A stretch of 64,000 nt of DNA from Turneriella sp. (GTDB taxonomy: Bacteria; Spirochaetota; Leptospiria; Turneriellales; Turneriellaceae). Positions 57,335 to 57,629 of this stretch are shown one piece after another. The stretch spans positions 124,001 through 188,000 of the forward strand of contig JABARV010000005.1 of NCBI GenBank assembly GCA_019186965.1, read 5' to 3'. The notes beneath the pieces were generated by a model. The model had not been told where the DNA came from. It saw only the letters and a program-made list of their open reading frames with translations, and made no database searches. Numbering within the stretch: position 1 is the first letter of the stretch; each line of letters opens with the position of its first letter. The position numbers and the translations under genes were made by a program.

Positions 57335-57408
57335 TGGGCACACCAGGACTTGAACCTGGGACCAACGGATTATGAGTCCGCCGCTCTAACCAACTGAGCT
57401 ATGTGCCC
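57335..57408 (-). tRNA. tRNA with CAU anticodon (elongator Met or Ile2)
   Basis: The minus-strand cloverleaf has acceptor GGGCACA/TGTGCCC, D arm GCTC...GAGC, anticodon stem GCGGA-CTCATAA-TCCGT, T arm CCAGG-TTCAAGT-CCTGG and discriminator A: 74 bases. The anticodon CAU could be elongator Met or lysidine-modified Ile. The initiator type is excluded because the G1-C72 pair is formed and the anticodon stem lacks the three G-C pairs. The variable region TTGGTC resembles Ile2 tRNAs, but Met cannot be excluded. CCA is not encoded (AAAA follows). Confidence 0.95.
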
Positions 57409-57410
57409 TT

Positions 57411-57536
57411 GTGGCACATAGCATCCTCTAACCAACTGCGATGCGTCTTCGCATCTCCGTCTTCGGTGCTATGTGCCCTTGTGGCACATAGCATCCTCTA
57501 ACCAACTGCGATGCGTCTTCGGTGCTATGTGCCCTT
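57411..57536 (-). repeat. Two tandem tRNA-derived modules upstream of the tRNA
   Basis: Minus-strand units of 56 (57481-57536) and 70 bases (57411-57480) each begin AAGGGCACATAGC, the tRNA's own 5' end with its two flanking bases, then an insert containing ACCGAAGACG, then CAGTTGGTTAGAG (the tRNA D-arm sequence), then GATGCTATGTGCC, which perfectly complements GGCACATAGC. They differ by a 14-base insert in the downstream unit. Both would be transcribed ahead of the tRNA. No anticodon arm or T arm is present, so they are not functional tRNAs. Confidence 0.85.
57438..57468 (-). repeat. Hairpin repeat copy B (matches groEL 3' flank)
   Basis: On the minus strand CACCGAAGACGGAGA precedes hairpin GATGCG-AAGA-CGCATC. 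This matches 1479-1507 except for one extra base pair (T-A) in the stem. It lies inside the longer tRNA-derived module. Confidence 0.7.
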
Positions 57537-57629
57537 CTTTTTTAAAGCCGAAGCATTTTAAAAAAAACTCAGCGCGTCAAGCGTGTAACGTCTTTACACC
57601 CCACTTAAACCCTGCTTAAGGGCTTAGGT

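Follow-up and report, generated by a model that had tools for sequence, protein, structure and literature searches.

It is mainly in mitochondria that double-hairpin repeats have been described next to tRNA genes, where they raise the question of how they spread. Small palindromes scattered inside and outside bacterial genes include REP/BIME sequences, with their RAYT transposases, and the Rickettsia palindromic elements. Where mobile elements leave scars in tRNA genes, it is usually the 3´ half of the tRNA that is affected. Double-hairpin elements (DHE) are reported from the mitochondrial DNA of Allomyces and other fungi (Paquin et al., 2000, in the account given by PMC5910586). Here we describe two tandem modules upstream of a Turneriella tRNA gene, which, judged from their sequence, are members of a Turneriella-specific repeat family, and we report their anatomy, recurrence, insertion point and genus limits, the covariation of their second hairpin and their presence or absence in relatives.

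The two modules upstream of a probable tRNA-Ile2

ARAGORN detects a single tRNA in the 64-kb window, which is the whole stretch of DNA analysed. This tRNA has the anticodon CAU and lies at 57335–57408 on the minus strand (Rfam RF00005, 76.4 bits). Its anticodon loop is CTCATAA, and the two further CAU tRNAs of the genome are of the initiator and elongator Met type, which indicates that the window tRNA is probably tRNA-Ile2. Two tandem modules occupy 57409–57534 of the minus strand, between the tRNA and a promoter-like element. An earlier note on this DNA had recognized them as tandem and tRNA-derived, and the copies of the tRNA head, D-arm and inverted head bear this out; its end point of 57536 is 2 nt too far.

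The proximal module (57409–57478, 70 nt), delimited by repeat comparison and sequence reading, comprises a copy of tRNA nucleotides 1–11, a double hairpin, a D-arm copy, an inverted copy of nucleotides 1–11 and ACAA. On the minus strand, which carries all parts of both modules, it reads GGGCACATAGC / ACCGAAGACGGAGATGCGAAGACGCATCG / CAGTTGGTTAGAG / GA / TGCTATGTGCC / ACAA. The direct copy (X) lies at 57468–57478 (head search, at most one mismatch). The core of hairpin 1, CACCGAAGACGGAG, was located by sequence match at 57455–57468, and its first C is the copy of tRNA C11. Hairpin 2 (57440–57455; GATGCG-AAGA-CGCATC in the alignment of hairpins) shares its first G with the core. It is followed by the copy of the D-arm segment at 57426–57439 (up to one mismatch), in which T12 is replaced, and by the inverted copy (X´) at 57412–57422 (inverted-match search). 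X´ and the tRNA's own 5´ end form complementary 10-bp arms with a 5-nt loop between them.

The distal module (57479–57534, 56 nt), delimited in the same way, equals the proximal sequence without GGAGATGCGAAGAC, and the two modules share a 54-nt block with 100% identity. Read directly from the sequence, the distal module lacks 14 nt between two CGAAGACG direct repeats, and its hairpins are fused. Its direct and inverted copies of nucleotides 1–11 lie at 57524–57534 and 57482–57492 (head search, at most one mismatch). In transcript-sense numbering, three segments recur twice each with at most one mismatch: the 11-nt head GGGCACATAGC (−126, −70), the D-arm segment (−101, −31) and the reverse complement of the head (−84, −14). 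The earlier note's account of each module as tRNA head, D-arm and inverted acceptor 5´ strand is confirmed; the longest exact inverted match is 10 nt. Each module is the tRNA 5´ end split exactly between C11 and C13 by an inserted ACCGAAGACGGAG plus hairpin.

This arrangement is not due to chance, because the leader and tRNA fold at −94.4 kcal/mol versus −66.7 ± 4.4 kcal/mol for shuffles (z −6.3), and inverted heads are rare in a shuffled-head control. An inverted head copy within 100 nt upstream was found for 2 of 31 tRNAs in this genome and 5 of 32 in Turneriella parva, compared with 0.005–0.015 tRNAs per genome in the control. In the Rfam search, the tRNA alone reached the gathering score and no structured-RNA family was found for the modules. 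A plus-strand match to Plastid-ycf2 fell below the cut-off, overlaps the complement of the tRNA and was discarded.

Distribution of the hairpin core

A search of the window's genome (G000, a draft of 27 contigs) with a 142-base query revealed a comparable tandem set ahead of tRNA-Val-GAC, together with many short matches that fell on one stretch, CACCGAAGACGGAG. This core has 19 exact copies in G000 and none in the reversed control. Among 61 genomes searched, it occurs in all seven Turneriella genomes and in 1 of the 54 outside the genus, which is another member of the same family; the Turneriella genomes beyond G000 hold further copies. The copies in G000 lie in tRNA pseudo-copies next to Ile2, Val-GAC (three), His (two) and Asn (one), in an Arg-TCT-like copy beside tRNA-Pro (two), and at tRNA-Asp (three), where they sit on the complement of the T-arm 3´ of the gene. 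Others lie in attC-like sites on contigs 1 and 14, after a groEL-like gene (window position 1479), and at one further site. Inverted repeats other than the attC-like sites also harbour the element. The groEL-associated copy is a double hairpin (CACCGAAGACGGAGAGCGAAGACGCTCG plus adjoining bases, by sequence match) at 1479–1508 on the plus strand, directly after the stop codon. A long inverted repeat, GAAAGGGGCTATCTAAAAAGTCCC...GGGACTTTTTAGACAGCCCCTTTC, also follows the groEL-like gene, at 1511–1665, and is possibly a small transposon-derived repeat; a related stretch, GGGACTTTTTAGACAACCTCTC, precedes the Ile2 modules in another Turneriella genome (G004).

Other Turneriella genomes add modules at Arg-ACG, Val-TAC, Asp and Arg-TCT. 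T. parva DSM 21527 (G005) adds modules at Thr-GGT, Asn, Met, Ile-GAT and Ala-TGC, the last two in paired Ile/Ala genes. The 14 core copies of T. parva are in mixed orientation, and no replication-relative pattern was seen by eye. In the same genome, the Ile-GAT/Ala-TGC pair and Val-TAC have full-length pseudo-tRNAs with hairpins in the D-stem and also in the variable loop, anticodon loop or T-loop.

A fixed insertion point and two compensated hairpins

Beyond what the earlier note described, the insertion between tRNA nucleotides 11 and 13 recurs throughout the genome and the genus. About twelve tRNAs have a pseudo-copy in which a two-hairpin insertion takes the place of the T in the D-stem CTCAG. 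Insertion after C11 was found in the pseudo-copies of Ile2, Val-GAC, Val-TAC, Arg-TCT, Arg-ACG, His, Asn, Asp, Ala, Ile-GAT, Thr and Met. All D-arm cases read tRNA nucleotides 1–11, AC, one or two hairpins and usually TCA or TCG, followed by D-loop sequence from C13 or directly by the inverted arm. tRNA-Ser-GCT has the same architecture on the opposite strand, again at CTCAG, and the T-arm insertion at tRNA-Asp is at CTCGA. The target would then be CTCR with the T replaced. A pattern for the D-arm arrangement has 16 matches in the seven Turneriella genomes and three single matches in the 54 others, the latter at about the level of the reversed control.

Hairpin 1 (CACCG-AAGA-CGGAG) hardly varies, and its few variants are compensated (CTCTG-AAGA-CAGAG and CACTG-GAAG-CAGAG). 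The sequence of hairpin 2 varies between tRNAs and species, and its pairing is kept. Its five outer pairs are 92% paired over 21 distinct rows versus 64% with the arms shuffled; none of 2000 shuffles paired as well, and the third pair was found as CG, GC, TA and AT. Two adjacent hairpins kept by compensatory change are the mark of double-hairpin and repetitive hairpin-forming elements. The outer stem of the modules is tRNA-specific by definition.

The Ile2 locus across Turneriella

In at least six of the seven Turneriella genomes, tRNA-Ile2 is preceded by the start of a divergent ceramidase gene. Two modules lie before the tRNA in G000 and G004, and one in T. parva and G001. G003 has a plain foldback: its inverted copy of the tRNA 5´ end matches perfectly over 20 bp, with the loop GTA. 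G002 and G006 have neither module nor foldback and carry unrelated short hairpins instead; the one in G002, a 15-bp hairpin followed by TTTTTT directly before the tRNA, resembles an intrinsic terminator in the leader. The earlier note would have counted plain leaders in relatives against its reading: two of the seven genomes are without a module, and five have a module or a plain foldback. Such presence/absence polymorphism at orthologous sites is a further property by which double-hairpin elements are recognized.

The ceramidase proteins at this locus are only 66–74% identical, so the flanks are saturated. G000, G004 and T. parva have flanks that cannot be aligned, yet the outer parts of their Ile2 modules (~42 nt) are nearly identical; hairpin 2 has turned over between species while the outer parts were kept. 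By this comparison, the module is older than some of the species splits, yet gained, lost or remodelled repeatedly. Conservation of the outer parts could reflect selection; alternatively, gene conversion with the tRNA or palindrome correction would have the same effect. Hairpin 2 also differs among the Val-GAC modules common to G000 and G004 (with a variant in G006) and among the His modules common to G000 and G006. In the sister genus G008, the DNA upstream of tRNA-Ala-TGC contains a copy of the head, two hairpins, a hairpin resembling the D-arm and part of an inverted head copy, all without the Turneriella core; this single case hints that the two-hairpin architecture is older than the core sequence.

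Foldbacks and palindromes near tRNAs

Of 95 tRNAs in three Turneriella genomes, 9 have an inverted copy (at least 10 nt) of their 5´ 25 nt no more than 100 nt upstream. Inverted copies of the same length of the tRNA 3´ ends were found downstream of none of these 95 tRNAs, and G008 has no inverted copies of tRNA 5´ ends upstream. This 5´-only placement is an asymmetry that a purely mutational model does not predict. Plain foldbacks reach 17 bp at T. parva Arg-TCG and 19 bp at G006 Thr-GGT. Perfect palindromes (arm of at least 14, loop of at most 8) number 8–14 per ~60 kb around tRNAs in the three Turneriella genomes (12–24 per 100 kb) and zero in G008; those in Turneriella have arms of 14–25 bp and loops of 0–6 nt. 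Since palindromes abound in general and the tRNA foldbacks are among them, an origin by mutation or mobility is favoured over a regulator specific to tRNAs. Loss of SbcCD was rejected as the cause of palindrome persistence: SbcC above the cut-off is missing from Turneriella and from the palindrome-poor sister genus alike.

Transcription and folding of the leader

A promoter-like TTGACG element lies upstream of both modules at 57575–57580 on the minus strand, 172 nt from tRNA-Ile2, and a related motif, TTGACGNNNTGTC, was found before other tRNAs of the genus. Among the plain tRNAs with this motif, most have it ~40–90 nt ahead; where modules intervene, the distance is 107–187 nt. Since the modules are downstream of the promoter-like element, they are probably part of the transcript and cut away together with the 5´ leader; the sequence thus makes the leader location proposed in the earlier note probable. 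A motif, TTGACGNNNTGTCT, is conserved ~40–90 nt before many Turneriella tRNA genes and is present in sister genera too; it is probably a tRNA promoter element.

In equilibrium folding, which excludes co-transcriptional folding and proteins, the acceptor-stem probability of the G000 tRNA is 0.97 without leader and 0 to 0.07 with 20–60 nt of leader; it is back at 0.91 with 75 nt, drops to ~0 with 100 nt and reaches 0.82 with 140 nt. The full leader restores the stem because the two modules pair with each other in the minimum-energy fold, leaving the tRNA free. With their full leaders, G003 Ile2, G004 Ile2, T. parva Arg-TCG and T. parva Thr-GGT have an acceptor-stem probability of 0. These values are no more than suggestive, since certain leader lengths also lowered the acceptor probability of two of the three control tRNAs (Phe and Ala). 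By calculation, the modules can trap the tRNA 5´ end, possibly costing or modulating maturation. As regards the idea that module stems compete with tRNA folding, the proximal inverted copy can abolish the acceptor stem at equilibrium, and the complete two-module leader restores it. The foldbacks raise the question of how tRNAs mature (Ile2 is apparently single-copy) whose precursor is predicted to prefer a 16–20 bp hairpin over the cloverleaf, as for T. parva Arg-TCG, G003 Ile2 and G006 Thr-GGT.

A regulatory leader, in which the inverted head copy would pair with the nascent tRNA and control its folding or RNase P access, thereby tuning tRNA supply, would account for the loss of the acceptor stem with short leaders in G000 and with whole leaders at the four other loci. 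It would also fit the recurrence of inverted copies at several tRNAs and species, and the placement of short-loop inverted copies solely upstream of 5´ ends. However, the tRNA folds again when both G000 modules are present, the dips of Phe and Ala and the equilibrium treatment weaken the folding argument, two of the seven species do without a module at Ile2, and most tRNAs carry none. Downstream placement is seen too, with modules behind the tRNAs for Asp in G000 and for Val and Ala in T. parva. On balance, we regard such a regulator as unlikely.

Origin of the modules

The explanation that we favour, and consider probable, is foldback or tandem duplication of tRNA 5´ ends, followed by invasion and re-amplification by a mobile double-hairpin element that is tolerated in the leader. 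First, a foldback or tandem duplication would copy the tRNA 5´ end in inverted and direct orientation, with the intact gene remaining downstream. Second, the double-hairpin element (CACCG-AAGA-CGGAG plus a variable second hairpin) would insert at the D-stem CTCAG of the extra copy and replace the T. Third, slippage between direct repeats would re-amplify the composite. We infer this order from intermediate forms. The element is presumed to be mobile, and most likely behaves as a non-coding, selfish or neutral repeat. A deletion removed both hairpins from the distal module, so not every copy needs them, which fits a tolerated repeat; the modules are more likely tolerated than selected. Against mobility, no transposase or integrase travels with the element. 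RAYT/Y1 transposase was considered as the mover and rejected: its domain (PF01797) is patchy and not linked to the element, it is absent from two module-bearing genomes (82–83% complete), and no core lies within 1.5 kb of the Y1 loci examined. A bolder and rather unlikely version has an active element of the two hairpins only, which would move as folded single-stranded DNA and target CTCAG in tRNA copies and attC-like sites, its foldbacks acting as a tRNA-specific maturation brake.

Slippage or tandem duplication acting alone on the 5´ region of the tRNA would dispense with the mobile element of the favoured explanation. The earlier note had listed slippage, and it does account for the tandem copying: the 54-nt repeat is exact, and the pseudo-tRNA duplications at T. 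parva Val-TAC span the leader and full tRNA copies. It leaves unexplained why the same foreign double hairpin sits at a fixed position in about twelve tRNAs and recurs in attC-like sites and behind groEL, which makes it quite improbable as the whole explanation.

Integration of phages or other integrative elements at the tRNA, or integron-like recombination into tRNA hairpins, is very improbable as the source of the modules. In its favour, the tandem arrays resemble successive insertions, and the same double hairpin lies inside attC-like sites with RYYYAAC/GTT ends, which suggests contact of the element with integron-like arrays. Nevertheless, the attachment-site scars that the earlier note had considered find no integrase next to the tRNA, whose neighbours are polA and the ceramidase gene, and the modules use the tRNA 5´ end, unlike the usual 3´-half scars. 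No integron integrase (TIGR02249) exceeds the cut-off in any of 13 genomes: the best candidates score 178–190 bits versus 265 and split around profile positions ~178–236, the IntI-specific insert. By reading, R and L boxes (RYYYAAC...GTTRRRY) were found around none of the tRNA modules and solely at the attC-like sites. These sites span ~280–330 bp, with RYYYAAC...GTT ends and an inner L-box-like sequence, and stand ~1–7 kb apart in arrays on G000 contig 1 (~300–330 kb), on G000 contig 14 and at ~2.057 Mb in T. parva. IntI-like recombinases without the IntI insert are encoded at G000:C14:37004 and at 3,455,166 in T. parva. Finally, an assembly or amplification artefact, conceivable for a draft of 27 contigs, can practically be dismissed, since the T. 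parva isolate genome (1,675x Illumina and 47x pyrosequencing; PMC3746428) has a module of this kind at the corresponding locus.

Comparison with known systems

The literature searched contained no report of such elements in Turneriella and no paper joining Turneriella and integron, and a search of the T. parva genome paper for these terms found no mention of such repeats (PMC3746428). The statement that no element of this design has been described holds within that literature, with mitochondrial hairpin elements as close parallels. The question of spread would become testable in cultured T. parva, where copies are many, insertion points are fixed and empty sites are clear.

Unlike REP/BIME and the Rickettsia palindromic elements, the Turneriella element has no visible link to Y1 and is site-specific in tRNA copies. 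It shares with integron attC sites the folded single-strand hairpins, and it occurs within attC-like sites of the same genus; unlike attC, the tRNA modules have no attC boxes found around them, and no canonical IntI was found. By analogy, the nearest described kinds are the mitochondrial double-hairpin and hairpin-forming repeats (PMC5910586, PMC2800124). The palindromes of cryptophyte mitochondrial DNA likewise have tRNA genes at their ends, but they are AT-rich and no double-hairpin core is described there (PMC5910586). The hairpin-forming elements of sponge mitochondria undergo complementary substitutions, lie 5´ of many tRNA genes and form double hairpins by tandem insertion, but they are not made from tRNA copies and reside in different genomes (PMC2800124). 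The fungal DHE, in the available descriptions, are similar in having two adjacent hairpins and in being short, non-coding, patchy between relatives and thought to be mobile. Against those descriptions, the Turneriella element is set apart by its bacterial chromosome, its conserved hairpin-1 sequence, its fixed point in D-stem copies and its tie to tRNA 5´ foldbacks.
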